A stretch of 64,000 nucleotides of DNA from Sinohyriopsis cumingii (taxonomy: Eukaryota; Mollusca; Bivalvia; Unionida; Unionidae): the NCBI GenBank assembly GCA_028554795.2, contig CM068838.1:86184944-86248943 (forward strand), in the 5' to 3' direction. Under the pieces are notes generated by a model. It worked only from the letters and a program-made list of their open reading frames with translations. It had not been told where the DNA came from and did not search any database. The position numbers and the translations under genes are program-made. Numbering within the stretch: position 1 is the first letter of the stretch; each line of letters starts with the position of its first letter. Positions 1,200 through 62,658 of the stretch are shown here, piece after piece.

Positions 1200-1364
1200 C
1201 GTTTTTCCATCCACTGACTGCTCCTTCATATATTGTATCCTGTGCAGAACATGGAGGGTCTTGGATGTATGTATCAATTCCAAGTTGCTTCAACAGAAAG
1301 TTTACTGCAGCATCAGTCATAGCAGTCAATGCATGATTTTTCATCCAGGTTGTCAGAGAGAAAT
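1200..1364 (-). CDS. Exon 28, module 5 helical segment and linker (last seen)
   Basis: 165 nt, entering with 2 nt and leaving 1 nt. It encodes residues 1338-1391. Built like exon 25: [17 protein letters not shown]1375, then AVSGWKN. Its exit phase calls for a six-Cys exon next, which must lie beyond position 1 because nothing suitable is seen in 1-1199. Confidence 0.84.
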
Positions 1365-13300: not shown

Positions 13301-16300
13301 CAAGTCATTCTATTTAACTGATTAATACAGTCTGTCACACATTGCAAGCTACATTTTTCAAGTCATTCTATTTAACTGATTAATACAGTCTGTCACTCAT
13401 TGTATGTCACTTTTTGCAACTCATTAAGTATCTCATAAATACACATGACAAAATAAACACCACCTACTTGATCTGGATAGCACCATCTGCTAGTGTCAGT
13501 ATGTGTTCCTCACCTGAAAATAAAATTAAAATGAAATACAACTTTAAGAAAGGTAACTTTGAAATTTTAAGACTAATTAACTGCAAGAAAAATTTGTTTT
13601 TATATCATCAAAGATCCAGGCTATTCAATATCATTAAAAACTATTATATGTTATGTATTTCTTTAGCTGAATATCATATCCAAGGGTCATTACATTTAAA
13701 AAGATGGGCAAAGAGACCTTGTTGCAAACTGTCCAAAAATTAATAATAGCTCTCATAACATAGTCATGATCATGAATCTCATTAAACAGATTCCATTTTT
13801 AAATTAAACTTGTTTAATATTTACATTAGAGGTTAATTTACTTTTGACTCATGGGAAATCAATTTGACAGCATAATTTCCTATTATTAGACATCTTATAT
13901 TTGTGTCACTATACAGTAACATGATAATCTTACAGTCTTCAGTATAAGGTGGCCTAACTTTTAACATGGGACACTTTTAATACTACTACTACTAATAGTA
14001 ATAATAAACTTTGTTTCATGAGGGTAACTCATTTTAAATATATTATTCTCCCCAGATGCCCTTAGGATGAACAAACTATTGTAAATACAAACTGTATAAC
14101 AAAGCATACAAGTATATTAAGTACATCTAGCACCTGGTACTGATAATAATTGGAGTACATGCATTTCAAAACAATGAAAATTACTTTTGAGATAATTGTC
14201 AATTGTTTTCAAAAGCATATAGATTTGTTTCTCATTTAATGTTTTATGAGAGAATTTAATTCAATAAACACCTCCAAAGTAAGTGAATGATTCTTGTTGT
14301 CTTTGTTTTTGGCAATCGTGTTAGTAGTTAATTCTTTGCTACTGATACAAATTAAATTACTTGGTATTGTTTCTGACTTGATACAAAAGATGTTATGCAA
14401 ATATGTTGACTAAATATTTTCTTTGTTTTGAACATTATTACAGACTCAGAGTATAAGAACCTGTACTTAGTCATGTCAAAGCAGAGTATAAGAACCTGTA
14501 CTCATTCATGTCAAAGTAGAATTTTGGATGATGCTTCCAAAAGCAAATTACAATAAGTGTGTGTGTTTTAGATTTTTAACACAGCTTTAACAATTTTTCA
14601 GTCATATCACTATAATAAATTGGCACTTAATAGTTATGTCTAGCACTGTGGCATCATGCTGCGGACATGTAGCATAATGTCCCACCCAGTCACGTTATCC
14701 TGACACCAGGCCAACCAGCCCTAACACTAACATTGTAATGCTGAGTGCCAAGTGAGGCAGCTGCTAGTACAATTTTTATAAGTCTTAGGGTATGACTTAA
14801 CCAGTGTTTGAACCTGATACCTCCTACATACAATGCAAATGCTCCAACATATTATGCCACAAGAGCAGTAAGTACAATAAATTCTTCAGGTTCTTTTTTT
14901 AAGTTTATGCATCCTTTCAATAATACTTTCAATCAAATATCTTCTGACTTTAATAATAATAATAATAATAATAATAATGATTATGTCTATCTGTATCATA
15001 GTCTCTCCAAAGCTCCTGCACATATCTGCAGTGACCATTCCATGTATGCACATTCAGCTTATTTTGTTTGATGAGTAAGGCATGGAGTGTGTGTGTAATT
15101 TGGATTTGTAATGTAGCTTTAACAATTTTGCAGTCATTTTTCTATGACATCTGCAATGTGACAGTTTATAGTGGCGTCTAGCACAGGGGCATCATGCTGC
15201 AGACATGTAGCAACATGTCCCACGCAGTCACATTATCCTGACACAAGGTCAACCAGTCCTAACATTAACCACTTAATGCTGAGCGCCAAACAAGGCAGCT
15301 GTTAGTAATATTTCTGTAAGTCTTTGGTATGACTCGGCTGGGAATCGAACCCACGATCTTCTGCTTCTGACACAGATGCTCTAACCACTAGGCCACTGGA
15401 GCAGTTTGGTCCAATCAGAACATTGCCATTGCAAGGCCTGGTGTTATTATAAAGGTATATTACCTGAATCAATGTTTAAACATTTCATATTTCTATTGTA
15501 CTCATGGTAAAAACTGAAAGCACATAGCACATAAATGTGGTAGTCACGTGATGCAACAAAACCATTGTTGACACGTTGTATTCTTGATGAATCTGACTGA
15601 CTTTCTCCAAGTTTCTGGTCCTTGTTCTATGAATAATATCTTCAGAATTATGTCTTCATTCATTGACAAACATTATGTGAGTTTATTACTTTTTTCATTT
15701 TGTACAACATTGGAAAGGGGGTTTATTATTGATATTGAACCTTGGATGTCATTAACAAGTAAGTTGCGAGATTTTTGTTGTCATGTGACTGGCAATGCAA
15801 ATGGCAAGCACCAGGTAAATTTGATCAACCTGTAGTTTCATCTCAACTGTAACCAGATTAAATATATAACAATTATAATATTCACAATTTTCCAAAAAAT
15901 TATTTTTCTATCAATTTCACGCAGATATATGACTTGATGTAACATCATTTAACTTTTCTAAGCCTGCTGGTAAGTGGCTACCTTATGCTATGCCACCACT
16001 GCATTGTGGTGGTAGCAAATTTGAATTTTCTACAGGCAACTGACTCTGACCCAACACCCCAACAGAAATGTCAAAGTGACATGAGAAGGGTCAGGGGAAA
16101 GTCAGACTAACCACGTAGGTACTACTAATGATACCCTACAATGTTTCTTTTCATTACCTAATCATCAAAGGTCACAAACAAAAGCTAACTGTATTGGTGA
16201 TCTTGGTGAATTTGGGTGTAAACACAATCCGATGTCTAATTATACCAACAGGCCTGACAAAAAAGTCTGTAATGTGTTTCACAATTGGTAAGCTGTCAAT

Positions 16301-49300: not shown

Positions 49301-52300
49301 TTTTATTTTAGAATTTCATGATATCAGCAATTTTCCATTTTGCTGGTTCTACTGCTCGTACTTTTTAAACCTAATTAGCTAAATGAAGAAAAAAATCTAT
49401 ATCTAAAATTTTAAAACAATGCCTACCTTTTTGGGGCAAAATTAAAAGATAAAGTATTTTTATCTATTCATAATCTTTATTTTATTAACTTTGTCATTTT
49501 TTTGTTCTTCTTTAAGTGGCTAAGAACTTGTCGCTTACATTTTCATCCTGGTCAATCACTAGGTCGACACCCTCATCAGCATACTCAGGGTCCCCAGACT
49601 TGAGGGAAGCTGGATAAAACCCAGAACCCTGGCAGCTGTCATCAGCCAATCTCGTTGTTTTTGGGAAAAGCTTGTGGGCCTTGTAGCCAAACACCTGATC
49701 AATCAGGGACCTTGCCAAACGATATCTATCATACAAAAATAGGACAAAGATTGAAAATGGAAGCCCTGTATCAATGTTCCTGGAGATGACTCTTTAAATT
49801 AATAAAATGTACACTCTGATGTATCCTTTAAACACAGGGTTAAAAACAAATGAGTTGTTAGATGTTAAATAAGTCATATTAAAGTGCATGGTATGTTTTA
49901 ATTATCTAAGTTCCTTGGAAATATAATATTATAACCTTATTATACACATCATTGTTTTCACTCACTCCGACCCCTTCTGATAAAAGTGCTGACTTACATA
50001 ATATTATAACTTTATTATATGCATCATTGTTTTCACTCACTCCGACCCCTTCTGATGAAAGTGCTGACTTACATAATATTATAACCTTATTATACACATC
50101 ATTGTTTTCACTCACTCCGACCCCTTCTGATAAAAGTGCTGACTTACATAATATTATAACTTTATTATATGCATCATTGTTTTCACTCACTCCGACCCCT
50201 TCTGATGAAAGTGCTGACTTACATAATATTATAACCTTATTATACACATCATTGTTTTCACTCACTCCGACCCCTTCTGATAAAAGTGCTGACTTACATA
50301 ATATTATAACCTTATTATACATATCATTGTTTTCACTCACTCCGACCCCTTCTGATAAAAGTGCTGACTTACATAATATTATAACCTTATTATACACATC
50401 ATTGTTTTCACTCACTCCGACCCCTTCTGATAAAAGTGCTGACTTACATAATATTATAACTTTATTATATGCATCATTGTTTTCACTCACTCCGACCCCT
50501 TCTGATGAAAGTGCTGACTTACATAATATTATAACCTTATTATACACATCATTGTTTTCACTCACTCCGACCCCTTCTGATAAAAGTGCTGACTTACATA
50601 ATATTATAACCTTATTATACACATCATTGTTTTCACTCATTCAGACCCCTTCTGATAAAAGTGCTGACTTACATAATATTATAACCTTATAATACACATC
50701 ATTGTTTTCACTCACTCCGACCCCTTCTGATAAAAGTGCTGACTTACATAATATTATAACCTTATTATACACATCATTGTTTTCACTCACTCCGACCCCT
50801 TCTGATAAAAGTGCTGACTTACATAATATTATAACCTTATAATACACATCATTGTTTTCACTCACTCCGACCCCTTCTGATAAAAGTGCTGACTTACATA
50901 ATATTATAACCTTATTATACACATCATTGTTTTCACTCACTCCGACCCCTTCTGATAAAAGTGCTGACTTACATAATATTATAACCTTATTATACACATC
51001 ATTGTTTTCACTCACTCCGACCCCTTCTGATAAAAGTGCTGACTTACATAATATTATAACCTTATTATACACATCATTGTTTTCACTCACTCCGACCCCT
51101 TCTGATAAAAGTGCTGACTTACATAATATTATAACCTTATTATACACATCATTGTTTTCACTCACTCCGACCCCTTCTGATGAAAGTGCTGACTTACATA
51201 ATATTATAACCTTATTATACACATCATTGTTTTCACTCACTCCGACCCCTTCTGATAAAAGTGCTGACTTACATATTATAACCTTATTATACACATCATT
51301 GTTTTCACTCACTCCGACCCCTTCTGATAAAAGTGCTGACTTACATAATATTATAACCTTATTATACATATCATTGTTTTCACTCACTCCGACCCCTTCT
51401 GATAAAAGTGCTGACTTACATAATATTATAAACTTATTATACACATCATTGTTTTCACTCACTCCGACCCCTTCTGATGAAAGTGCTGACTTACATAATA
51501 TTATAACCTTATTATACACATCATTGTTTTCACTCACTCCGACCCCTTCTGATAAAAGTGCTGACTTACATATTATAACCTTATTATACACATCATTGTT
51601 TTCACTCACTCCGACCCCTTCTGATAAAAGTGCTGACTTACATAATATTATAACCTTATAATACACATCATTGTTTTCACTCACTCCGACCCCTTCTGAT
51701 AAAAGTGCTGACTTACATAATATTATAACCTTATTATACATATCATTGTTTTCACTCACTCCGACCCCTTCTGATAAAAGTGCTGACTTACATAATATTA
51801 TAACCTTATTATACACATCATTGTTTTCACTCACTCCGACCCCTTCTGATAAAAGTGCTGACTTACATAATATTATAACCTTATTATACATATCATTGTT
51901 TTCACTCACTCCGACCCCTTCTGATGAAAGTGCTGACTTACATAATATTATAACCTTATTATACACATCGTTGTTTTCACTCACTCCGACCCCTTCTGAT
52001 AAAAGTGCTGACTTACATAATATTATAACCTTATTATACACATCATTGTTTTCACTCACTCCGACCCCTTCTGATAAAAGTGCTGACTTACATAATATTA
52101 TAACCTTATTATACACATCATTGTTTTCACTCACTCCGACCCCTTCTGATAAAAGTGCTGACTTACATAATATTATAACCTTATAATACACATCATTGTT
52201 TTCACTCACTCCGACCCCTTCTGATGAAAGTGCTGACTTACATAATATTATAACCTTATTATACATATCATTGTTTTCACTCACTCCGACCCCTTCTGAT

Positions 52301-55300
52301 GAAAGTGCTGACTTACATAATATTATAACCTTATTATACATATCATTGTTTTCACTCACTCCGACCCCTTCTGATAAAAGTGCTGACTTACATAATATTA
52401 TAACCTTATTATACATATCATTGTTTTCACTCACTCCGACCCCTTCTGATGAAAGTGCTGACTTACATAATATTATAACCTTATTATACACATCATTGTT
52501 TTCACTCACTCCGACCCCTTCTGATGAAAGTGCTGACTTACATATTATAACCTTATTATACACATCATTGTTTTCACTCAAACGTTCCATGCTGTCTTGC
52601 ATTTTATGTATTGCAGCTTATTAAAGCAAGCTTTGATTATAGGACATGATACAAAAAGCTACAGTTATCTTCCTTTAATACATGGAATCAGAAAACTCTA
52701 ATTCATTTAACTTATTCGGCCCCAATCCCACCTTTAGGCGTGATGAGTCTGTATCCTATTTCCAAGCTCTACAGCATCAAGGTCATTTAAGATGGGTGGT
52801 ATTATAAAGAAGCAGACAGATATAGCTCTACAATGATACCAATAACTGGAAGTTTTAGTTGCACTACAAAATACAGTGGGCAAAAACTCATTTTTTAGAC
52901 CCATTTTTGTTTTCACCCAAAATTCTCTTGTGGTCAGAATGTGATTTTGTGTCCGGATTTTAGACCTTTTGGCCTCATATCTAAGGCAGACCAGTCTGAA
53001 CTGCACACAGACAGGTGAACTTTTGCAAAAACTAGGATAACATGGGCATTTGGAATAAAGAGCGGTCTCCAAATGAAAATGATAGGTCCATTGAGCAAAA
53101 AAAAAAAGAAAAGAAAAAGAAAGAACTCCAACTTTTACCCTTCTGCTCATGTGCATGCAAAATAACCAATGGAAAATAATGTTTCTAATACAACTAGGCA
53201 TTAGTCTCATGGAAAATCTGTTGAAAGCTAATGTATTATGATGTATTCAGAAATAGCCCCCATAATGTCTTTCCTACTTGCATTTCAGGCGAAAATGACA
53301 AAAACCTCTGGGGCCAAATGAGTTAATGCATTTCTATTTCATAACAAATATGAAAGAAAAGAACTGAAACCATCAACAAAATTGATAAATGTAAAATCTG
53401 AATGCAGTTTTGAGACCATAAATGAAAAGAAAGATAACTGACAAAATGCAAATGTGAATGGAATGCAAACAGAACACAAATGGAATGCATACGGATTGTA
53501 ATTGGATCAAACTCATTTGTGATCTTAACCCTTTACCTCATGTGCAGTGCGCTAAAAATGAAACACCTGTTACCTATTTGACTCCATACACACAGGCCTG
53601 CCTGCCTGCTAACTGTTACCAATTTAAAAGTAAAATCCGAAAGTTATAGCTGTGTAATTATTTTTCATGCAAGAATTTTTTATGTGCTATAAAATCTTGA
53701 AAGAACTCGATCACCATCAAATCAGTGAAGCTGCAGGACCAACCTTTGCTGCCATTTCTCATACTCAAAATTTACAAGCTTTTGTCTGCATCTACGTCAC
53801 TAAGTCATCTGAATTTGATAATTTATAAAAACCAATTGCTGCCTACATCATTATCAGAGCCTTTATTTAAGTTATTGAAGCTTTCATATTTGTGATTCTA
53901 ATCGTGAAAACTTCATAAGTACCGAATGAAATCCATTTTATAGAGCGGAGAATGCGACCCAGTTACTTTAAATAGCAATTTCGACCAGAGCATTAACAGT
54001 GACCACGTGATCTGAGGTAATGCTCATTTACAGAAATGAATGTAGTATCTAACAGGCAGTTTTCTTCAAAGGTGATGCTATGAAAACCCGCTTAAAATGG
54101 CTGATGTTTACAGCAGGCCTCAAAAGGCACTTACATGCAAATGGGGTAGAGGCATCCAAAGGTGCTTGCATGAGATAAAGCATTAATAATATATGCCTGC
54201 AATACAAATGTGACCAAAACCTGTTGAGAAATTTTGTCTCGAGTGATCACAAGCTTATCCAATCTGATGCACAACCACCTCTTTAATATTCATGAATGTT
54301 GGTCTCAAGTAAGTTTATTTGAGAACTTGATGACATGCTTCAATAACAGATTTCATCAAATCCTGAATAGAAATGTGGAATTCCAGTTTGGCCACATGCA
54401 CAGCCAATCATTTGCAAGATCACTTCATTAATAGGTATGGATATTGCTCATAATCAAAGTCATCTGAGATCTAGATAATATTAGCTTGCAAAGGAAATCT
54501 GACACAAATCTGATTAGAAATATGGTCTCTAGAGTTTTGTTTTTCTCAAACTCAATCAAATTCAAGATCACCTCATCTATATGCATCAATATACTTCTAG
54601 AATTTCCAAAAGCTCAGTTAATCAGTTACAAGATCAATATCGTTCATAATACAACTCATCCATGGTCATGCTAATATAAGCTTACATGCTAAATCTGATC
54701 AAAATCTTGTCAGAAATATGATCTCTAAAATGTTTACAAGTTCAACCACTTAGTTGCTTGATCACCTCATTAATATGCATGGATATCACTTATAATCAAA
54801 CTCCTCTGAGATCCTGATGAAATTTACATACAATGATTGATCAAAAACATATCAGAAATAAATTCTCTAGAGTTTTCACAAATACGTATTGACAGCTGTA
54901 TCATGTACACAGGTCAAGTAAACTAAACACAGCAACACTCACCCTTCCTTGAGGGAGTTGTATGCATCTTTGATGTCTTTTACAATCTTAAAAATCTGCT
55001 GGAAATATTTGATGAATGGATCAGCAATTCCTCTCAAGGTGTCAAATGGCTCCAAAAGCTCATCCATTATGTCCTTCAAGTCCTGAACCACCTGTTTCTT
55101 TATATCAACCTGTAGCAAGATGGACAGACAGATAAAAAAGGGTATTTAAGTAGTTACCAGTAAACACAGAACAGATTAAAGTTGGACTCGTATTATATTT
55201 CATAATAATTCAACAGTGTCTAAAACTGATTCCATGCTCCCAAATATTCATGAAAATTAATGAAAATTAAATAATAAATAAATTTACCTATCTTTAGGCT

Positions 55301-55561
55301 TTGATTATATATGATTGCAATTTGTCTCTGCAACAGCAGGCGCTGCTGCTTTCAAAACTCTTGGGTCTACGATATCAAGTCCTGCTGATTTAGTATTATC
55401 AATTTTGTACAGATATTTTAAAACAGAAGTTAAGCTTACTTCACGAATTTTAAATCGATCATTTTTTGATAACCTTGATTTGGACTGAGACTAAAAGATA
55501 TCATAGCAAGTAAGTACTAATTAAACTTAGTTTACTCAATCTCAAATCTACATTAACAGCA

Positions 55562-55594
<33 letters not shown>

Positions 55595-58500: not shown

Positions 58501-61500
58501 ATACAATGCAGTGCTCTAAATTTATTTGCAAAGCAGTGCACTAATTATATACAATGAAGTGCTATAAATTTATATACAATGCAGTGCTATAAATTTCTAT
58601 GCAAAGTAGTGCTCTAAATTTATATGCAAAGCAGTGCTCTAAATTTATATGCAAAGCAGCACTATAAATATGCAAAGCAGTGCTCTAAATTTATATACAA
58701 AGTAGTGCTCTAAATTTATATATAATGCACTGCTATAAATTTATATGCAAAGTAGTGCTCTAAATTTATATACAAAGCAGTGCTATAAATTTATATGCAA
58801 AACAGCGCTATAAATTTATATACAAAGCAGTACTATAAATTTATATTCAAAGCAGTGCTGTAAATTTATATACAAAGTAGTGCTGTAAATTTATATACAA
58901 TGCAGTGCTAAAAATGTATATGCGAAGCAGTGCTCTAAATTTATATACAATGCAGTGCTATAAATTTATATGCGAAGCAGTGCTCTAAATTTATATACAA
59001 GGCAGTGCTATAAATTTACAGTGGTTCCTTGACTTACGAGTGTCCTAACTAACAAGTTTTTTGAGATACAAGTCGTCTCTCTGCCGATTTTTTGCTTTGA
59101 GTTGAGAGCTAAAATTCAGGTTATGAGCCAGCTTCAGATACCCCATCACTAGTTGGCGTAGCGAATGCCACAGTGAATGTCGCAACATCATCCCTTGTCT
59201 CACTCGTTCACTTTAAGTGGTTAGCTTGCAGTGGAAGCATCATTGTTGTGCTTGCATTTGTGCTTGCAGTTATTTTGCAAAACTTCGTTTTTCCAAACAT
59301 GGATCCAAAGAAAGTGAGTGCGAAGGACAGTGCTGAGAAGAAGAAGCGGATGATGTGCATTGAATTAAAGAAAGAAATTATCAAAAAACATTACCAAGGT
59401 GTGCGTGTAGTCGACTTGGCGAAGCAGTACGAGCGTAGCACTTCTACGATCTGCACCATACTGAAGCAAAAGGAGTCGATAAAGGCTATAATGCAAGCCA
59501 AGGGCATTAAAATAACTTCTAAACAGCGGACATCTATCCATGAAAATATGGAGAAGCCACTGATGGTATGGTTGATGGAGAAGCAGCTCGCAGGAGATAC
59601 CGTGATGGAGACAATAATCTGCGAGAAGGCACGAGCTATTTATGCTAATTTGCTGCAGCAGACCCGAGGCACTTCGACGGATGAGGCATCGGGTGAGCAC
59701 TTTAAAGCCAGTAGGGGCTGGTTTGAGAATTTTAAAAAGAGGACCAGCATTCACTCCGTTGTCAGGCATGGTGAGGCAGAGAGCGCAGATATGAAGGCAG
59801 CTGAGGATTACCTCAAAACTTTTGCTGAAATTATAGCAGTAGAAGGATACATACCCCAGCAAGTCCTCAAATGTGACGAGACAGGATTCTTCTGGAAAAA
59901 GATGCCAAGGAGGACTTATATAACGGCAGAGGAGAAGAGGATGCCAGGCCACAAACCCATGAAGGATAGGATAACCCTCGCACTGCGCGCCAATGCAAGC
60001 GGCGACTGCAAGATTAAGCCGCTGCTCGTTTATCATTCAGAAAACCCTAGAGCCTTTAAGTCACATAAAATTCTGAAAGAAAAACTGCAGGTTATGTGGA
60101 GGGCAAACCCAAGGGCGTGGGTCACCAGGCAGTTCTTTGTGGAGTGGGTGAATTTGGTCTTTGGTCCTGACATTAAGAAATATCTCCAGGAAAATAACTT
60201 ACCCCTGCAAGTCCTTTTCATCCTGGACAATGCACCTGCTCACCCACCTAACCTCGAAGATGACATCCTCGAAGAGTTCAAGTTTATAATGGTTCTCTAC
60301 CTTCCACTCAACACCACCCCTATCCTGCAGCCCATGGACCAGCAGGTGATTTCTAATTTCAAGAAGCTCTTCACCAAGCACCTGTTTCGCCGCTGCTTTT
60401 GAGGTGATGGAGAGCACAAACCTCACCCTTCGAGAGTTTTGGAAGGACCACTATAACATCGTGATATGCCTCAGAATTATCAATATGGCCTGGCAGGGTG
60501 TTACAAAGAGGACCTTGACCTCTGCGTGGACGAAGCTGTGGCCTGAGGTTGTGTCTGAAATGGACTTTGAAAGACTCGAACCCGAAGCGGCAGTGGTGGA
60601 GGAGATTGTATCCCTCGGCAAGTCCATGGGCCTGGACGTGAAAGAAGGTGACATCAACGAGCTCATCGAGGAGCACTCCGAGGAACTGACAACGGAGGAG
60701 CTAAAGGAACTACAGACGCAGCAGCACATGGAGGTTTTGCAGGAAATAGGTGATGTGGAGGAGGTTATCTCTACAAGTGAGATAAAGGAAATGTTGGGAA
60801 TGTCCGAGAAACTTTCAGACTTTATTCAAAAGAAACACCCAGAAAAAGTTGCAACTGGGCATGCGACAGCACTATTTAATGACACTTGCCTAACTCATTT
60901 CAGAAACATTCTGAAACAGAGGATGAAACAAACCTCATTAGACAGGTTTTTATCGAAAACCCCTGCAGATGAAAGTGAGGAAAGCGTGGCGAAAAGGGCA
61001 AAGATCAGCAAATAAGATTCAGTTATTCACTTCAGCCTTTCTCCTCCACCTCCATCAGCATCTTCAAGTCGTCTGATCTCCAAGGTAAATGCTGTACATT
61101 ATACTTAATAAAAAAAGTTTATTGCAGTACATTATATTGTTTTGTGTTTTTATAGAATATTCGTTATTTATAAGTACATTTTTCTTACTTAAAAAAAATT
61201 TGAGGTGTTTTTTGGGGATCTGGAACAGATTAACGGCATTTCAATTCATTTCAATGGGGAAAATTGATTTGACATACGAGTAATTTGAGTTACGAGCTCC
61301 GACACGGAACAAATTAAACTCATAAGTCAAGGAACCACTGTATATGCAAAGCAGCACTATAAATTTATATGCAAAGCAGTGTTATAAATTTATATGCAAA
61401 GCAGTGCTCTAAATTTATATACAATGCAGTGCTATAAATTTATATGCAAAGTAGTGCTCTAAATTTATATACAAAGCAGTGCTATAAATTTATATACAAA

Positions 61501-62658
61501 GCAGTGCTATAAATTTATATGCAAAGCAGCGTTATAAATTTATATACAAAGAGGCGCTATAAATTTATATGCAAAGCAGTGCTCTAAATTTATATACAAA
61601 GCAGTGCTATAAATTAATATACAAAGCAGTGATATAAATTTATATGCAAAGCAGCGCTATAAATTTATATGCAAAGCAGTGTCTAAATTTATATACAAAG
61701 CTGCGCTATAAATTTATATGCACAGCAGTGATCTAAATTTATATACAAAGCAGCACTATAAATGTATATACAAAGCAGAGCTATAAATTTATATAGAAAG
61801 CAGTGCTATAATTTATATACAAAGCAGTGCTATAAATTTATATGTAAAGCAGTGCTATAAATATACAACACAGTGCTATAAATTTATATACAAAGCAGTA
61901 TTCTAAATTTATATACAAAGCAGTGCTATAAATTTATATGCAAAGCAGTGCTCTAAATTTATATACAATGCAGTGCTATACATTTTTATGCAAAGCAGTG
62001 CTCTAAATTTATATACAAAGCAGCACTATAATTTAAATTCAAAGCAGTGCTATAAATTTATATTCAAAGCAGCACTATAATTTATATGCAAAGCAGTGCT
62101 CTAAATTTATATACAATGCAGTGCTATACATTTTTATGCAAAGTAGTGCTCTAAATTTATATACAAAGCAGCGCTATAATTTATATGCAAAGCAGCACTA
62201 TAAATTTATATGCAAAGCAGTGCTATAAATTTATATTCAAAGCAGCGCTGCAATTTATATGCCAAGCAGCACTATATATTTATATGCAAAGCAGTGCTCT
62301 AAATTTATAAACAAAGCAGTGCTATCAATTTGTATGCAAATCAGTGCTCTCAAATTATTTGCTACTTACTCAGAGCCTTTATTTCCAAAACAAATTTTGA
62401 ATGAAGAAAATTATAAATATAAAAAATGCACCTCTGTGCAACTTATGTACTGTTTAGGGTTGAAAGAATGTGAAAGGTGTAATTGCTCCACAAACTTAAA
62501 TTCTTATGAATAAAAAGACAGATGGGCATATTGATGGCTATTGTACTTACTAGGGAGATAATAAATTATCAAAAAATGTCATGTCACCTTTTAGAAAGAA
62601 GCATGCCTCCATTGTCTTGTTTTTAGCATCCAGCAACTGTTTCACTGATAAATAAATG
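1200..62658 (-). CDS. Giant modular gene, partial: M23/LECT2-like domain plus five tandem Cys-rich modules
   Basis: Span of one spliced gene, open at both ends. Twenty-eight exons were read from AG/GT boundaries (listed separately). All 27 junctions keep phase and give about 1,391 codons without a stop. Order: helical leader (1-135), M23/LECT2-like domain (136-356), linker (357-436), then five modules at about 437-686, 687-924, 925-1127, 1128-1336 and 1337 onward. A module is: helix ending Leu-Gly, SAP-like motif or one-Cys linker, six-Cys domain, connector, three-Cys domain. Cysteines per module are 10, 8, 10 and 11 for the four complete ones. N-x-S/T sequons at residues 13, 238, 526, 743, 848, 974, 1141 and 1312 suggest an extracellular protein. 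The M23 fold normally cuts peptides in cell-wall cross-links, or serves as a cytokine fold in LECT2. I do not recognise the modules and propose no function. Two adjacent genes remain possible, but no stop or start separates the two halves. Confidence 0.82.
1668..1905. mobile_element. Possible hAT-type MITE fragment
   Basis: The left part, caggtatgtccaacctgcgg at 1672, resembles the terminus of Zaphod/Charlie-like hAT elements (CAGGGGTGTCCAACCTGCGG). Several ggccca and tggccac words follow. No clear right terminus or 8-bp target duplication was seen. Confidence 0.35.
2004..3202. repeat. 350-bp duplication with second copy split by a minisatellite
   Basis: A unit at 2004-2353 is repeated as two parts, 2354-2450 and 2946-3202. 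Between the parts, 2410-2948 is an expanded ~28-bp array based on aacaccaacaccaaaactg and gttcatt. The first unit holds only two copies of the small repeat. The array seems to have grown inside the second unit after duplication. Confidence 0.8.
3251..3405 (-). CDS. Exon 27, module 4 three-Cys domain
   Basis: 155 nt, entering with 1 nt and leaving 1 nt. It encodes residues 1286-1336, starting FSIRKL. Cysteines are at 1306, 1313 and 1330 (PQLIC). There is a sequon at N1312. Confidence 0.85.
3406..4554. other. Intron stretch without recognised features
   Basis: AT-rich sequence between exons 27 and 26. A 119-codon minus-strand ORF at 3884-4243 shows no domain and no plausible splice context. 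I see nothing else. Confidence 0.5.
4555..5157. repeat. ~38-bp minisatellite
   Basis: About 15 copies of a unit containing caaatgctaacatactaatg and catagtctgtcagcaac, with small length variants (with or without agtc). It ends 118 bp from exon 26. Confidence 0.85.
5275..5560 (-). CDS. Exon 26, module 4 six-Cys domain fused to its connector
   Basis: 286 nt, entering with 2 nt and leaving 2 nt. It encodes residues 1191-1284. Cysteines are at 1191, 1209, 1215, 1220, 1221 and 1240. The domain ends NDWG and runs on without an intron into the connector (residues 1265-1284), which has one extra Cys at 1276. The donor GTAACA is acceptable, and the phase fits exon 27. Confidence 0.83.
5563..6640. other. 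Intron stretch with AAT/AAC microsatellite
   Basis: Positions 5563-5611 are (aat)n running into (aac)n beside the exon 26 acceptor. The remainder to 6640 shows no recognised element. Confidence 0.5.
6840..7810. repeat. Dispersed repeat, copy 1 of a pair
   Basis: Blocks at about 6860-6995, 7340-7560 and 7780-7830 match 15000-15085 plus 15431-15510, 16095-16290 and 16560-16630 in the same order and strand. Shared words include tgcagtgacca, gaatcaatgttta and caaacaaaagctaa. The two loci are diverged copies of one sequence, type unknown. Confidence 0.6.
8263..8448 (-). CDS. Exon 25, module 4 helical segment fused to its linker
   Basis: 186 nt, entering with 2 nt and leaving 1 nt. It encodes residues 1129-1189. 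It joins what are two exons in modules 1-3: a helix (LANWISEM to [10 protein letters not shown]) and a one-Cys linker (C1173). It ends SVSGWRN, a motif shared only with exon 28. There is a sequon at N1141. Confidence 0.85.
8612..8818. repeat. 69-bp minisatellite, three copies
   Basis: Three nearly identical units start at 8612, 8681 and 8750 (gaaaatattgtataaaagta). Sixty-nine is a multiple of three, so short ORFs cross the array, but they are not genes. Confidence 0.9.
9209..9384 (-). CDS. Exon 24, module 3 three-Cys domain
   Basis: 176 nt, entering with 1 nt and leaving 1 nt at a GTAAGT donor. It encodes residues 1070-1127, starting FTVNKM. Cysteines are at 1090, 1100 and 1118 (EIPAC). The gap between the first two is larger than in the other copies. 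Confidence 0.86.
9385..11055. repeat. Intron stretch with two small tandem repeats
   Basis: Positions 10183-10238 hold three copies of a 20-bp unit (caaggtcactataactcatg). Positions 10657-11010 hold five units of tacatgaggaacaagt and onward. The first three steps are 64 bp and the later ones 78 bp because of a 14-bp insertion (gtcataggatac and neighbours), which then spread to a neighbouring unit. The rest is unremarkable. Confidence 0.8.
11060..11760 (-). pseudogene. LINE relic: RNase H and C-terminal zinc region
   Basis: Minus-strand translation shows [19 protein letters not shown] and then LPVSYSIY, matching the end of the RNase H domain in I/Jockey-type non-LTR retrotransposons (W-x-P-S-H-x-G-I-x-G-N-E-x-A-D). 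Further on, remnants of R-I-G-x-T-x-x-T-H and [14 protein letters not shown] match the conserved C-terminal C/H region. Frames are broken by stops and shifts, so it is inactive. Confidence 0.72.
11808..12059 (-). mobile_element. tRNA-derived SINE, family 1, copy 1
   Basis: 252 bp flanked by an 11-bp direct repeat, ggggaattctg, at 11797-11807 and 12060-12070. The 5' head is at the right and reads on the minus strand as a tRNA-like A box (tggccgagtgg) and B box (gttcgagtc). The 3' tail is aaatggcgttaaaccctaca then (aac)n. Confidence 0.9.
12730..13430. repeat. ~62-bp minisatellite
   Basis: About eleven copies of a unit with caagtcattctatttaaact, gattaatacagtctgtcac and tcattgtatgttac. The array ends 38 bp from exon 23 (13468). 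Confidence 0.85.
13468..13513 (-). CDS. Exon 23, module 3 connector
   Basis: 46 nt, entering with 2 nt and leaving 2 nt. It encodes residues 1055-1068 ([14 protein letters not shown]). Position and phase match exon 18. Confidence 0.68.
13514..14548. other. Intron stretch without recognised features
   Basis: AT-rich. It contains a short (act)/(aat) microsatellite near 13980-14005 and a 40-bp local repeat at 14450-14516 (cagagtataagaacctgtac). Nothing else is recognised. Confidence 0.5.
14557..14872 (-). mobile_element. tRNA-derived SINE, family 2, copy 1
   Basis: 316 bp flanked by the 8-bp repeat tacaataa at 14549-14556 and 14873-14880. The tail side starts with (gt)n. The head is at the right and degenerate, aligning with the clearer tRNA-like head at 15330-15404. 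Confidence 0.78.
14953..14983. repeat. (AAT)n microsatellite
   Basis: About ten uninterrupted aat units. Confidence 0.95.
15086..15432 (-). mobile_element. tRNA-derived SINE, family 2, copy 2
   Basis: The head, read on the minus strand, has gctccagtggcctagtggtt and gtgggttcgattcccag, clear A and B boxes. The flanks aaggcatgg (15077) and aaggcctgg (15433) look like a diverged target duplication. The related locus near 6930 has the sequence uninterrupted, which supports an insertion here. About 28 bp beyond the head are unexplained. Confidence 0.78.
15433..17555. repeat. Dispersed repeat, copy 2, and plain intron
   Basis: Positions 15433-15510 and 16095-16630 match the repeat at 6840-7810. 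An (aat)n run sits at 16603-16630. From 16640 to 17555 I see nothing recognisable. Confidence 0.55.
17556..17745. mobile_element. Short MITE, diverged copy
   Basis: 190 bp similar over its full length to 38212-38398. The right end, taaatggaatagccc, matches the terminal repeat there with one change. The left end (gtgctgtttca) is degraded. Confidence 0.65.
17946..18197 (-). CDS. Exon 22, module 3 six-Cys domain
   Basis: 252 nt, entering with 2 nt and leaving 1 nt at a GTAAGT donor. It encodes residues 971-1053. Cysteines are at 971, 992, 998, 1003, 1004 and 1031, with LDPCDF at the last and LDWG at the end. There is a sequon at N974. It is the longest copy. Confidence 0.88.
18198..19325. other. 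Intron stretch without recognised features
   Basis: AT-rich sequence between exons 22 and 21. No repeat array, ORF with a domain, or mobile element was recognised. Confidence 0.5.
19326..19371 (-). CDS. Exon 21, module 3 one-Cys linker without SAP motif
   Basis: 46 nt, phase 0 in, leaving 1 nt, the same phases as the SAP exons. It encodes only residues 955-969 ([15 protein letters not shown]). C962 matches the Cys that precedes the SAP motif in modules 1 and 2, so the motif has been lost and the Cys kept. Confidence 0.68.
19430..19650. repeat. ~110-bp tandem duplication
   Basis: Two copies share gttaattggcttgaaaatga and attttatcttgggt, ending atggtttacagcaa. The second lacks about 12 bp of the first. 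Confidence 0.85.
19760..19848 (-). CDS. Exon 20, module 3 helical segment
   Basis: 89 nt, entering with 2 nt and leaving in phase 0. It encodes residues 926-954, the shortest helical segment, ending [10 protein letters not shown]. The first half seen in modules 1 and 2 is missing. Confidence 0.78.
20150..20340 (-). pseudogene. LINE relic, C-terminal region
   Basis: On the minus strand the words gaccagagtgt and gtggaatgca, with their spacing, resemble the C-terminal part of the relic at 11060-11340. The reading frame is degraded. It may be the displaced end of the relic at 21880-22430. Confidence 0.42.
20520..20747 (+). pseudogene. Tyrosine-recombinase relic (DIRS/Ngaro/Crypton-like)
   Basis: The plus-strand translation has [19 protein letters not shown], then [20 protein letters not shown] and TSAAKTGIP. 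This follows the phage-integrase-fold pattern of retroelement recombinases: F-x-x-x-L before a G-x-D/N, then H-S-F-R-x-G-A-A-T-x-A-A-x-x-G. The Arg of the R-x-x-H/HxxR set reads as His (HTCHIAA), and the catalytic Tyr region is cut off by an (aat)n run. It is a dead fragment. Confidence 0.6.
21880..22430 (-). pseudogene. LINE relic, RNase H domain
   Basis: Minus-strand translation contains [12 protein letters not shown] (RNase H start, Y-T-D-G-S-K-x-x), later CCWL at the W-x-P-S-H site, and [13 protein letters not shown] at the N-E-x-A-D site. Frames are broken. It parallels 11338-11760, so the two are copies of one LINE family. Confidence 0.68.
22717..22871 (-). CDS. Exon 19, module 2 three-Cys domain
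   Basis: 155 nt, entering with 1 nt and leaving 1 nt. It encodes residues 874-924, starting FSIDKD. Cysteines are at 894, 900 and 917 (IPIPIC). It has the same length as the module 4 copy (51 codons). Confidence 0.86.
23035..24745. repeat. 56-bp minisatellite, about 30 copies
   Basis: The unit includes gaagaggtccagaagatgta, ttatagatctaacac and gataaatagttaatct. Copies are over 90% alike except for a 4-base hypervariable spot after aacac (tatg, tagg, aagg, tacag). This makes a natural variant code along the array. It begins about 160 bp from exon 19. Confidence 0.95.
24746..25955. repeat. Intron stretch with one half of a dispersed pair
   Basis: Positions 25361-25475 match 57658-57770 (atatggcac, ccactctttctctgactt-like words, ctaaaacaagccaaag). 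The rest shows no recognised element. Confidence 0.5.
25956..25998 (-). CDS. Exon 18, module 2 connector
   Basis: 43 nt, entering with 2 nt and leaving 2 nt. It encodes residues 860-872 ([13 protein letters not shown]). It is very short, but it lies in the expected place with the expected phase. Its end (TIIR) matches AIQIK in module 3. Confidence 0.68.
26050..26662. repeat. 63+37-bp composite minisatellite, part 1
   Basis: A long unit (gttatgtggctttatgttgg, tgctatgctatcaatcctat) alternates with a short unit (gttatgtggctttatgtatg), each ending ccactaaatagt. Together they form a 100-bp higher-order repeat. It resumes at 28279 after the LTR insertion. Confidence 0.92.
26663..28278. mobile_element. 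Solo LTR, 1.6 kb, inside the minisatellite
   Basis: The sequence begins TGTTATGAA and ends CACGTTACA, flanked by gtat at 26659-26662 and 28279-28282 (gtatt if shifted one base). Flanks on both sides are the same minisatellite, so the empty site is known. It contains a TATAAATA at 27451-27458 and an AATAAA at 28003-28008 in the same direction, and an internal ~165-bp duplication (26689-26849 and 26896-27060). No coding region is present, so it is probably a recombined single LTR. Confidence 0.72.
27451..27458 (+). promoter_or_regulatory. TATA box of the solo LTR
   Basis: tataaata is followed about 30 bp later by accagtcagtt, an initiator-like TCAGT. With the AATAAA 550 bp downstream this gives the usual U3-R-U5 order on the plus strand. 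Confidence 0.5.
28279..28713. repeat. 63+37-bp composite minisatellite, part 2
   Basis: Same units and phase as 26050-26662, ending about 190 bp from exon 17. Confidence 0.92.
28903..29148 (-). CDS. Exon 17, module 2 six-Cys domain lacking two Cys
   Basis: 246 nt, entering with 2 nt and leaving 1 nt. It encodes residues 778-858 and ends SYDWG across the junction. Cysteines are at 778, 807, 813 and 836. The second and fourth conserved positions are Tyr801 and Val812. There is a sequon at N848 (WNIT). Confidence 0.86.
29149..30604. other. Introns flanking exon 16, no features
   Basis: Apart from exon 16 (29687-29828) the sequence is plain AT-rich intron. A short run of catcaattc-like words sits at 29263-29325. 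Nothing else is recognised. Confidence 0.5.
29687..29828 (-). CDS. Exon 16, module 2 SAP-like motif
   Basis: 142 nt, phase 0 in, leaving 1 nt. It encodes residues 730-776. [20 protein letters not shown] followed by EELEAAL is the clearest SAP-like motif in the gene. C738 precedes it (PPCP) and N743 is a sequon at its first helix. Confidence 0.88.
30605..30732 (-). CDS. Exon 15, module 2 helical segment
   Basis: 128 nt, entering with 2 nt and leaving in phase 0. It encodes residues 688-729, a lysine- and alanine-rich helix that begins NWSEML and ends ILSELGLSE. The N-W start recurs as LANW and LTTW in modules 4 and 5. Confidence 0.83.
31181..31356 (-). CDS. Exon 14, module 1 three-Cys domain
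   Basis: 176 nt, entering with 1 nt and leaving 1 nt. It encodes residues 629-686, starting YSITKK and probably beta-rich. Cysteines are at 651, 659 and 676, the last in LPLPIC. It aligns with residues 874-924, 1070-1127 and 1286-1336. GTMSWPK follows the last Cys. Confidence 0.85.
31357..32105. other. Intron stretch without recognised features
   Basis: No array, element or plausible exon seen. Confidence 0.45.
32106..32545. repeat. ~20-bp minisatellite
   Basis: About 20 diverged copies of acacatgtagcagtctgta. Some are shifted by a/c or t/g changes. Confidence 0.85.
33110..33873. repeat. 33-bp minisatellite, about 23 copies
   Basis: The unit is built from cactgctaccagagacccca and tttagctatattg. 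Thirty-three bp is eleven codons, which explains a 161-codon ORF ([10 protein letters not shown] repeats) at 33209-33694. It has no splice or start context and is not called a gene. Confidence 0.93.
33874..34914. other. Intron stretch without recognised features
   Basis: Contains short C-rich patches (34335-34425) but no recognised element. Confidence 0.45.
34915..35225. repeat. ~60-bp minisatellite, five copies
   Basis: The unit holds gacaccaggaaagtcagcaa and ctataatactgtattccaca. Confidence 0.85.
36192..36236 (-). CDS. Possible 45-nt cassette exon in module 1
   Basis: 45 nt, entering with 1 nt and leaving 2 nt, so it can be included or skipped between exons 13 and 14 without a frame change. 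The donor GTGAGT is strong. It would add 15 residues ([14 protein letters not shown] plus a split codon), with one Cys. The other modules have nothing here, and exon 13 to 14 joins directly. It may be alternative or spurious. Confidence 0.3.
36587..36662 (-). CDS. Exon 13, module 1 connector
   Basis: 76 nt, entering with 2 nt and leaving 2 nt at a GTAAGT donor. It encodes residues 604-627, with [11 protein letters not shown] near the end. Position and phase match the connectors at 25956, 13468 and the end of exon 26. It is about ten residues longer than they are. Confidence 0.7.
38212..38398. mobile_element. Short MITE with gggctgttcca terminal repeats
   Basis: 187 bp. The left end gggctgttccaataaa and right end tttaaatggaacagccc form an 11-bp perfect inverted repeat that continues imperfectly. 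No clear target duplication. A diverged copy lies at 17556-17745. Superfamily not assigned. Confidence 0.7.
38667..38876 (-). CDS. Exon 12, module 1 six-Cys domain
   Basis: 210 nt, entering with 2 nt and leaving 1 nt. It encodes residues 534-602. Cysteines are at 534, 547, 553, 558, 559 and 580. The arrangement is C-P, then C-x5-C-x4-CC, then F-D-P-C-x-F. It is the shortest of the four copies and ends FENPLNG instead of DWG. Confidence 0.87.
39310..39448 (-). CDS. Exon 11, module 1 SAP-like motif
   Basis: 139 nt, phase 0 in, leaving 1 nt. It encodes residues 487-532. After DEPC (C494) comes [20 protein letters not shown], matching the SAP pattern of L-x-x-x-L-x-x-R-G, then G-x-(K/R)-x-x-L. 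SAP domains usually bind DNA in the nucleus. Here there is a sequon at N526 and Cys-rich neighbours, so another role is likely. Confidence 0.84.
39835..39986 (-). CDS. Exon 10, module 1 helical segment
   Basis: 152 nt, entering with 2 nt and leaving in phase 0. It encodes residues 437-486. The end of the helix ([12 protein letters not shown]) lines up with [26 protein letters not shown] and LLKQLGID in the later modules. This shared ending marks the start of each repeat. Confidence 0.82.
40620..41260. repeat. 170-bp duplication and dispersed ~150-bp repeat family
   Basis: Positions 40630-40910 hold two copies of a unit with ttctgatccatgca and gctaaacaactactagcta. From 40740 to 41260 are diverged units with ccattcaggaggt, tttaggaccaa and cattataagaagtctt, the same family as the block at 62940-63690. 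Confidence 0.65.
41261..44204. other. Introns around exon 9, microsatellite only
   Basis: An (ag)n run lies at 43394-43414. A minus-strand window at 43307-43391 has good splice sites but a wrong phase (see rejected items). Otherwise plain. Confidence 0.45.
42097..42186 (-). CDS. Exon 9, basic linker
   Basis: 90 nt, entering with 2 nt and leaving 1 nt. The acceptor is a run of T then CCAG. It encodes residues 407-435, basic and serine-rich ([19 protein letters not shown]). LGKR could be a dibasic cleavage site, but this is only a motif. It joins the acidic linker to module 1. Confidence 0.68.
44205..44352 (-). CDS. Exon 8, acidic linker
   Basis: 148 nt, phase 0 in, leaving 1 nt. It encodes residues 357-405. 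After a short hydrophobic stretch (FIVGLGGT) it is rich in D, E, P and T ([19 protein letters not shown]), which suggests a disordered spacer between the M23-like domain and the modules. Confidence 0.78.
44648..44898 (+). mobile_element. tRNA-derived SINE, family 1, copy 2
   Basis: 251 bp flanked by a perfect 9-bp repeat agtgaagta at 44639-44647 and 44899-44907. The head has an A box (tggctgagtgg) and B box (gggttcgagtcc). The tail is aaaaatggcattaaacccta then acaacaacatc. Same family as 11808-12059, opposite strand. Confidence 0.92.
45230..45344 (+). mobile_element. SINE/LINE 3' tail fragment in the 50-bp array
   Basis: The words aaaagcgcttagagcttctc and aggcgctatacaaa followed by (att)n form a 3' tail common to many invertebrate SINEs and LINEs. 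A single 50-bp-array copy lies to its left (45186-45222) and the main array to its right, so it was inserted into the array. Confidence 0.6.
45345..46203. repeat. 50-bp minisatellite, about 17 copies
   Basis: The unit is gtgatatatggctttttatc, aagggttctacggggcaatg and tctgacctgt. One isolated copy occurs at 55592-55628 next to a (tg)n run in another intron of the same gene. Confidence 0.95.
46381..46557 (-). CDS. Exon 7, M23-like domain, HxH motif
   Basis: 177 nt, phase 0 to 0, with a TTTCAG acceptor. It encodes residues 298-356. [10 protein letters not shown] corresponds to the M23 K-x-G-x-x-I-G strand. NHIHFAIRV holds H316 and H318, the HxH zinc motif (nt 46495-46503), followed by DPTRFL, close to the family's DPxxYL ending. 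C312 and C346 flank it. Confidence 0.88.
46558..48089. other. Intron between exons 7 and 6, no features
   Basis: AT-rich, with a C run at 46926-46942. No element or exon recognised. Confidence 0.45.
48090..48221 (-). CDS. Exon 6, segment within the M23-like domain
   Basis: 132 nt, phase 0 to 0, with a long pyrimidine acceptor and a GTAAGG donor. It encodes residues 254-297 ([20 protein letters not shown], then [14 protein letters not shown]). It sits between the VAPFPG strand and the HxH strand, where bacterial M23 and LECT2 have loops and strands. Because it is 0-0 it could be skipped without changing frame. Confidence 0.75.
48250..48417 (-). CDS. Exon 5, M23-like domain, VAPFPG strand
   Basis: 168 nt, phase 0 to 0. 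It encodes residues 198-253. [11 protein letters not shown] matches the M23 core strand that follows the G-V-D motif (V-x-A-P-x-x-G-x-I). The rest is beta-rich, with a glycine run SGGSLGG and a sequon at N238. Confidence 0.85.
48445..49095. repeat. ~42-bp minisatellite, about 15 copies
   Basis: The unit is tcaacttacagtcttgtatc, aagaatccaatatcaattaaa. Some copies lack the three bases cag or aca. Confidence 0.92.
49539..49725 (-). CDS. Exon 4, start of the M23/LECT2-like domain
   Basis: 187 nt, entering with 1 nt and leaving in phase 0 at a GTAAGC donor. It encodes residues 136-197. The stretch from C166 ([13 protein letters not shown]) to DEGVD at 185-189 follows the LECT2/M23 pattern of Cys, Gly-rich turn and then H-x-G-V-D. 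Asp185 replaces the usual His ligand and Asp189 is the second ligand. An ORF continues past the donor to a stop, but the next exon joins cleanly and carries on the domain. Confidence 0.85.
49922..52580. repeat. 75-bp satellite, about 35 copies
   Basis: The unit contains cattgttttcactcactccg, accccttctgataaaagtgc and tgacttacataatattataa. Between about 49990 and 50590 two variants alternate (cacatc with gataaaag, and atgcatc with gatgaaag), giving a 150-bp higher-order repeat. Three copies are 72 bp through loss of aat. As 75 is 25 codons and the unit lacks stops on one frame of each strand, it produces long false ORFs on both strands (up to 653 codons). It lies in the intron between exons 4 and 3. 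Confidence 0.97.
52711..53322. mobile_element. piggyBac-like non-autonomous element
   Basis: TTAA lies at 52707-52710 and 53323-53326. Just inside are inverted termini cttattcggcccca and, on the other strand, ctcatttggcccca (two differences in 14). TTAA target sites are a hallmark of piggyBac. No transposase domain is seen in the 612 bp. Confidence 0.6.
53327..54942. repeat. Intron stretch with diverged ~150-bp repeats
   Basis: From about 54220 to 54890 words such as gatcacctcattaatatgca, cagaaatatg and tctctagagttt recur at roughly 150-200 bp spacing, an old tandem array. 53327-54220 shows nothing recognised. Confidence 0.5.
54943..55109 (-). CDS. Exon 3, amphipathic helical leader
   Basis: 167 nt, phase 0 in, leaving 2 nt. 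The donor GTGAGT is strong. It encodes residues 80-135 with heptad-like spacing of I, L, V and F ([15 protein letters not shown], then [20 protein letters not shown]), suggesting a helical hairpin just before the M23-like domain. Confidence 0.82.
55567..55628. repeat. (TG)n run next to one 50-bp satellite copy
   Basis: Fourteen tg units at 55567-55594 overlap the gtg start of a single unit otherwise known from 45345-46203. Confidence 0.9.
55629..57044. other. Intron stretch without recognised features
   Basis: A plus-strand run near 55735-55865 reads open for about 40 codons but shows no known motif. No element recognised. Confidence 0.4.
57045..57365 (-). mobile_element. tRNA-derived SINE, family 2, copy 3
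   Basis: Similar along its length to 14557-14872 and 15086-15432, from cagagctttaacaatctgag to ggccaccagagcagt. The tRNA-like boxes are degraded. Target repeats are uncertain (acattgtgtgta and acactgtgta). Confidence 0.72.
57658..57770. repeat. Dispersed repeat, match to 25361-25475
   Basis: Shares atatggcac, ccactctttctgact-like and aaactaaaacaagccaaag with the other copy, same strand. Type unknown. Confidence 0.6.
57876..58042 (-). CDS. Exon 2, helical leader
   Basis: 167 nt, entering with 2 nt and leaving in phase 0. The acceptor is TTTTAG and the donor GTAGGT. It encodes residues 24-79, Trp-rich at the start ([14 protein letters not shown]) and then an alanine-rich helix. No domain is recognised. 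Confidence 0.75.
58260..58345 (-). mobile_element. SINE family 1 tail fragments
   Basis: Two short pieces, gggtttaacgtcatttttca and gttgggtttaatgccacatt, match the 3' tail of SINE family 1 read on the minus strand. No tRNA-like head. Confidence 0.6.
58453..59018. repeat. 25-bp satellite, part 1
   Basis: About 22 copies of gcaaagcagtgctctaaatt tatat variants. Two versions alternate irregularly: gctct/gctat and gcaaag/acaatg. Confidence 0.93.
59019..61340 (+). mobile_element. Tigger (pogo/TIGD1-like) DNA transposon
   Basis: 2,322 bp inserted in the 25-bp satellite. TA lies at 59017-59018 and 61341-61342. The ends are inverted repeats, cagtggttccttgacttacg on the left and its reverse complement on the right, 23 bp with one mismatch. 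The single transposase gene reads plus, opposite to the host gene. The length is close to human Tigger1 (about 2.4 kb). Confidence 0.96.
59299..61015 (+). pseudogene. Tigger transposase with one frameshift
   Basis: I start at the ATG at 59299 ([10 protein letters not shown]), since Tigger proteins begin this way. An ORF extends 42 codons further upstream, but that stretch is hydrophobic and atypical. Domains in order: CENP-B-type N-terminal HTH (about 59330-59490), second CENP-B HTH (about 59530-59770) and DDE_1 catalytic core. Catalytic Asp codons are at 59875 (CDETG), 60226 (LDNAPAH) and 60337 (QPMDQ), all intact, with 36 residues between the last two. The frame ends in a stop at 60400-60402 within a run of four T (60397-60400). 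The next frame continues to 61015 with the acidic C-terminal region ([17 protein letters not shown]). One extra base would explain this: a true mutation or a sequencing error. Confidence 0.92.
61343..62350. repeat. 25-bp satellite, part 2
   Basis: About 40 copies continuing the array in the same phase after the Tigger insertion. Several copies lack one or two bases. It ends about 240 bp from exon 1. Confidence 0.93.
62588..62658 (-). CDS. Exon 1 (most upstream seen), leader segment
   Basis: The exon has a pyrimidine-rich acceptor and a GTGACA donor, 71 nt, phase 1 to phase 1. It encodes 23 residues including [19 protein letters not shown], with a sequon at N13. Its last base joins exon 2 to make Asp. 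It is set apart from exon 2 by 4.5 kb of satellite and the Tigger element, so it rests only on splice sites and phase. Upstream exons must lie beyond 64000. Confidence 0.55.

Follow-up and report, generated by a model that had tools for sequence, protein, structure and literature searches.

A very large, probably secreted mussel protein, very likely of the LLTP type, with an internal degenerate M23 domain and tandem Cys modules

The classes of the large lipid transfer protein (LLTP) superfamily named in the consulted parts of two papers are vitellogenin/clotting protein, apoB/apolipophorin, and MTP (PMC1783640, PMC10799875); among these, the clotting protein is a crustacean relative (PMC1783640), and MTP is described as lacking both the C-terminal VWD domain and DUF1081 (PMC10799875, in part). 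Here, we analyzed a stretch of 64,000 nucleotides from Sinohyriopsis cumingii (assembly GCA_028554795.2, contig CM068838.1, positions 86,184,944 to 86,248,943; the whole stretch is referred to here as the window), in which lies the central part of a single very large, unnamed, and probably secreted animal protein. We are highly confident that the protein is of the LLTP type and contains a degenerate M23 domain. Such a protein is a variant within the LLTP kind, not a categorically new kind.

To place the chain, we used 32 fetched relatives (P0001 to P0032), which carry database names such as “uncharacterized,” “hypothetical,” “unnamed,” or “SAP domain-containing.” The full-length relatives have one order of parts: a hydrophobic, signal-like start, an LLT/vitellogenin N-module, helices, a degenerate M23 domain, a helix with a SAP domain, and a Cys-rich beta domain, which in bivalves forms tandem repeats. 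Their N-module is predicted to fold into a beta sheet plus a helical superhelix, and the predicted fold of the P0011 N-module matches lipovitellin, MTP, and apoB. When 17 LLT-bearing relatives were scanned with Pfam, the LLT domain was above the cut-off at the N terminus in 8, below it in 3 (P0011, P0013, and P0018), and unlisted in 6 (P0005, P0010, P0014, P0016, P0024, and P0030), with 12.9 bits for P0005 when scanned as a piece; P0003 was excluded from this count because its model starts inside the N-module. The family thus resembles the LLTP superfamily (vitellogenin, apoB/apolipophorin, MTP, and crustacean clotting protein) in the N-module fold of the relatives, in a hydrophobic start recognized by eye, and in giant size. 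It differs in that DUF1943, DUF1081, and VWD are absent from the Pfam listings of the relatives, several of whose models are cut at the C terminus, and in that predicted helices, a degenerate M23 domain, SAP domains, and Cys modules are found instead. Where known LLTPs have the sheets of the lipid cavity, the stretch that follows the N-module in the relatives is predicted as helices with about four strands, at a predicted local distance difference test score (pLDDT) below 60 and mostly below 50.

The chain was rebuilt on the minus strand from splice-site scores and homolog matches. The resulting model has 28 exons, from 62658-62588 to 1364-1200, with AG/GT borders and agreeing phases at all of them, in agreement with the exon number and outer borders given by a first-pass annotation made from the sequence alone; its estimate of about 1,391 codons is corrected to 1,344 codons, with no stops and 43 Cys. 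Among the matches listed by tblastn, the exon matches are mollusc proteins; exons 7 and 9 are matched by P0002, P0004, and P0005, while exon 8 is supported by splice sites and phase. Additional exons were found neither above 62658, using pieces of five relatives, nor below 1200, using one piece of P0001, and no other exon of the gene was found elsewhere within the window, so the chain is indeed open at both ends, as had been stated. The features are as follows.

62658-62588, 58042-57876, 55109-54943, minus strand: exons 1 to 3, helical segment (splice model; matches to P0005, P0024, P0010, and others), corresponding to the segment that joins the N-module to the M23 domain in full-length relatives
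49725-49539, 48417-48250, 46557-46381, minus strand: exons 4 to 6, degenerate M23-fold domain with the motifs DEGVD and HIH
44352-44205, 42186-42097, 39986-39835, minus strand: exons 7 to 9, acidic-rich linker and helix (splice model; in P0004 the linker is predicted at a pLDDT mostly below 50)
39448-39310 (SAP), 38876-38667 (six Cys), 36662-36587 (connector), 31356-31181 (three Cys), minus strand: exons 10 to 13, module 1
30732-30605 (helix), 29828-29687 (SAP), 29148-28903, 25998-25956 (connector), 22871-22717, minus strand: exons 14 to 18, module 2
19848-19760 (helix), 19371-19326 (linker), 18197-17946 (six Cys), 13513-13468 (connector), 9384-9209 (three Cys), minus strand: exons 19 to 23, module 3
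8448-8263 (helix and linker), 5560-5339 (six Cys), 4286-4244 (connector), 3405-3239 (three Cys), minus strand: exons 24 to 27, module 4
1364-1200, minus strand: exon 28, helix and linker of module 5 (splice model; 72% identity to P0001), the remainder of which lies beyond the window

The relatives P0007, P0010, P0015, P0024, and P0026 align in one piece with window residues 1 to 1344, and P0002 does so with residues 1 to 1320 (38 to 44% identity, E value of 0), while the alignment of P0019 covers residues 22 to 1256; window residue 1 corresponds to residue 871 of P0026. These alignments, which concern protein models rather than transcripts, answer the earlier worry that the gene might end between exons 8 and 10. 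The closest protein is P0001 of the freshwater mussel Potamilus streckersoni, with 86% identity over 395 residues (88 to 94% in exons 21 to 23 and 78 to 100% in each exon of module 4). Its gene model begins inside module 3 and continues past the window end. Both P0001 (around residues 1450 to 1790) and P0005 (around 1213 to 1340) are public models that read through short tandem repeats, of the NGANGMNSKFSMHS and SVKSFRGQ types, which are probably intronic minisatellites annotated as coding.

In the M23 domain, the M23/LytM fold is present, as had been proposed for exons 4 to 7, although the domain occupies exons 4 to 6 and exon 7 belongs to the acidic linker. Two of the motifs reported earlier, GVD and HxH (here HIH), are there, with the first zinc-ligand His, that of H(x)3D, replaced by Asp. 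In the window, there is no His anywhere between GVD and HIH, and the extra active-site His (His260 of LytM, about 30 residues before HxH) is missing. The zinc-motif residues were read from an alignment of 26 rows. The first His of H(x)3D is present in 2 rows and absent from 24, one of which has a gap, and the complete zinc triad is found in P0026 and P0013; the first His of HxH is missing in P0005 to P0009, P0021 to P0023, and P0031, and the last in P0012, P0014, P0015, P0019, and P0020. In 15 of the 26 rows, a neighboring loop carries a His some 30 residues ahead of HxH that could be the extra active-site His, and no row combines it with the complete triad; the place judged by eye to be equivalent to His260, which may be wrong, is occupied by Asn or Gly in each of the 25 rows that have a letter there. 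Judged by its residues, the window domain appears inactive, a reading that is confined to the window and not claimed for all relatives. It differs from the degenerate M23/LytM members EnvC, NlpD, Csd2, and SpoIIQ in being internal to an animal LLTP-type protein, in the loss of the first His ligand, and in having no His between the motifs.

Downstream of the M23 domain, two linkers are SAP domains by Pfam, confirming the SAP-like motif noted before: module 1 scores 25.5 bits, module 2 scores 30.8 bits, and the whole chain 43.7 bits, against a cut-off of 23.9. Both have a net charge of −4, and the mean is −1 over 26 pattern-found stretches, including one non-SAP stretch (P0024 2871). This acidic charge argues against conserved DNA binding. 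The two domains are like those of other SAP domain proteins in scoring above the cut-off but unlike them in being acidic and in lying in a probably secreted protein.

The Cys modules were counted with a local hidden Markov model (HMM) built from 67 seed stretches, 3 of them from the window, with amphioxus included in the seed and the sponge not. Modules 1 to 4 of the window score 103.2, 86.1, 99.4, and 142.6 bits and contain 10, 8, 10, and 10 Cys, respectively; what had been described as five ten-Cys modules is thus four complete modules, not all with ten Cys, and the first exon of a fifth. By the same HMM, P0010 has 6 modules, P0026 has 9, P0024 has 11, and P0025 has 14, with one each in amphioxus P0021 and in the sponge. 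P0001 has eight module stretches, two of them in common with the window, suggesting that the complete mussel gene probably holds at least 10. The six-Cys part, connector, and three-Cys part described earlier as separate do exist as exons, but in module 2 of P0004 they are predicted as one antiparallel beta domain (pLDDT of 79 to 92). When Cys co-loss was counted over 86 of 98 module stretches, C2 and C4 were lost together in 16 rows (15 module 2 orthologs and one other), C6 and C9 in 6 rows (Mytilus and Mercenaria), and C7 and C8 in 3 rows, compared with two rows that lose C8 alone; module 2 of the window has lost both C2 and C4. Paired loss predicts the bridges C2-C4, C6-C9, and C7-C8, and the C6-C9 bridge suggests that the six-Cys and three-Cys parts are tied together. 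In P0003, a Mytilus galloprovincialis paralog, two VWA stretches (227.8 bits) are interspersed among the Cys modules.

Molluscs, amphioxus, and a glass sponge share the domain order. In pairwise comparisons with mussel P0026, sponge P0031 aligns over residues 29 to 1428 (24.6% identity, E value of 3e-91) and amphioxus P0021 over residues 8 to 1507 (27.4%, 4e-150); the N-module, helical, M23, and SAP-Cys segments of the sponge each match both amphioxus and mussel at about 1e-9 or better. In the alignment, a long stretch is missing from the M23 part of the sponge, and the placement of the sponge in the tree is not safe. Amphioxus P0021 and sponge P0031 also have a common C-terminal tail with a PAN domain, the last part of which is closer (35% identity, 3e-103) than the other segments compared and in amphioxus matches fn3 below the threshold; this tail has no match in P0026. 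Most simply, the domain order is an old one, whose tail bivalves replaced with tandem Cys modules, the gastropod models being cut too early to tell. P0032 (Mercenaria, 4605 amino acids) matches P0026 residues 487 to 1244 (4e-77), which cover the end of the N-module, the helical part, and M23, and has no Cys-module match with the module HMM. In P0023 of Branchiostoma belcheri, a GDSL-lipase match at residues 185 to 295 interrupts the N-module, and P0023 is probably a merged gene model.

A chimera of two adjacent genes joined by eye is extremely unlikely: some relatives are annotated in pieces (Solemya P0011 and P0004, possibly separate genes, and Potamilus P0001), but single colinear models exist in Mytilus, Mizuhopecten, and Potamilus, and up to module 1 the models from amphioxus and the sponge keep that order. 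The first-pass annotation had taken the head for a true LECT2-type domain or orthologue fused to the tail, which would be a new architecture. LECT2 is a small one-domain protein, and its GVD motif carries a zinc-binding His. The family profile does include LECT2 chains (133 to 135 residues in the PDB) among its weak hits, at E values of 0.13 to 0.14, and LECT2 is likewise an animal protein with a degenerate M23 fold that lacks the catalytic His, according to part of PMC9662197. With the same profile, however, an M23 peptidase and SpoIIQ score better (0.021 to 0.022), and a search with only the window head gives 12 listed chains that include SpoIIQ (0.063) but not LECT2. The window domain is moreover internal to a chain of no fewer than 1,344 residues within an LLTP-type protein, rather than a small stand-alone protein, and has Asp in place of the GVD-motif His. 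We rejected LECT2 orthology on the profile results, and consider the fusion very unlikely; of the earlier M23/LECT2 assignment, only the M23 half is retained. A fold search gave no LECT2 among the 50 matches listed, which excludes nothing. An active M23 peptidase directed at bacterial walls, which could draw on the fold, the retained HIH, the full triads of P0026 and P0013, and the loop His of the relatives, is more improbable still, as triad and loop His never stand in one row. In the window, this candidate was rejected on its residues, the first His ligand being gone and no His lying between the motifs.

As to function, the LLTP-type protein would be secreted into body fluid or matrix, as the hydrophobic starts of the long relatives, judged by eye, and sequons suggest. 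Its M23 groove would bind rather than cut, and the string of modules would repeat a binding or self-association surface many times, so that the protein may serve as an opsonin, clotting, or adhesive molecule and not mainly as a fat carrier. We lean slightly toward an LLTP-type protein, carrying a degenerate M23 domain, that acts as a multivalent recognition or scaffold molecule; taken by itself, the role as such a protein in body fluid or matrix is the likeliest of those considered but tentative. A number of points weigh against this reading. The N-module lies outside the window and is presumed for the mussel gene from its relatives, it is missing from the annotation of P0001 (86% identical), and the region behind it is predicted at the low confidence given above. 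The window M23 score is below the Pfam cut-off, and the loop His might be catalytic in relatives. Pfam lists no SAP in P0021 and no M23 in P0031, in which SAP is sub-threshold (14.3 bits). Expression or ligand data for the family were not found. In the consulted part of PMC7949091, crab vitellogenin binds bacteria via DUF1943 and VWD and not via LPD_N, while in coral all three domains bind; as DUF1943 and VWD are unlisted in the relatives, the crab result calls for caution about a recognition role.

A lipid carrier or yolk-type lipoprotein, in which the N-module, like that of vitellogenin or apoB, would load lipid, leaving the M23 and Cys parts only to steer uptake, is doubtful. It is consistent with the predicted N-module fold and with the named LLTP classes being mostly lipid carriers or helpers (PMC10799875, PMC1783640, both in part), but it has to contend with the unlisted DUF1943, DUF1081, and VWD and with the low-confidence helical prediction behind the N-module. 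Equally doubtful is a structural matrix protein of egg envelope, byssus, mantle, or cuticle, cross-linked by disulfide modules. Tandem Cys domains in variable copy number, the VWA domains between the modules of P0003, the PAN domains of the amphioxus and sponge relatives, and the 4 of 10 Cys per module without a partner by co-loss speak for it; co-loss, on the other hand, assigns the other 6 to pairs within the module, and structural use alone leaves the conserved M23 fold unexplained.

The introns of the window contain further elements. In intron 1, a transposase reading frame lies at 59113-60402 on the plus strand (DDE_1 at 105.7 bits and a Tc5-type helix-turn-helix at 36 bits), which we take to be Pogo/Tigger-like, and an open frame at 60350-61015 overlaps its end in another phase. 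Intronic minisatellites are many (49923-52580, 23072-24710, 45345-46203, and 61341-62362, among others), the top-scoring one having a 75-base unit in 35.6 copies with a 97% match. The sole Rfam match is to tRNA, at 15330-15402 on the minus strand in intron 21 (34.4 bits against a cut-off of 29), which may be a tRNA-derived repeat.

Among the literature matches listed, with most subscription papers and all supplements outside the scope, no paper describes an LLTP that carries an M23 domain or mentions any of six gene numbers from the family. One speculative history, which we hold to be possible though unlikely as a whole, is that of an LLTP class apart from vitellogenin, apoB, and MTP that arose before the sponge-bilaterian split, traded its lipid cavity for helices, acquired an M23 domain of bacterial type whose enzymatic activity was then mostly lost, and turned into a multivalent scaffold for recognition, with bivalves amplifying the disulfide module up to 14-fold; vertebrate LECT2 could then be a stand-alone descendant of this M23 domain. 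If true, a further LLTP class with its own conserved order would change the account of the origin of the superfamily, and the family offers a direct route to testing a very early use of the lipid-transfer module in recognition or as a scaffold.
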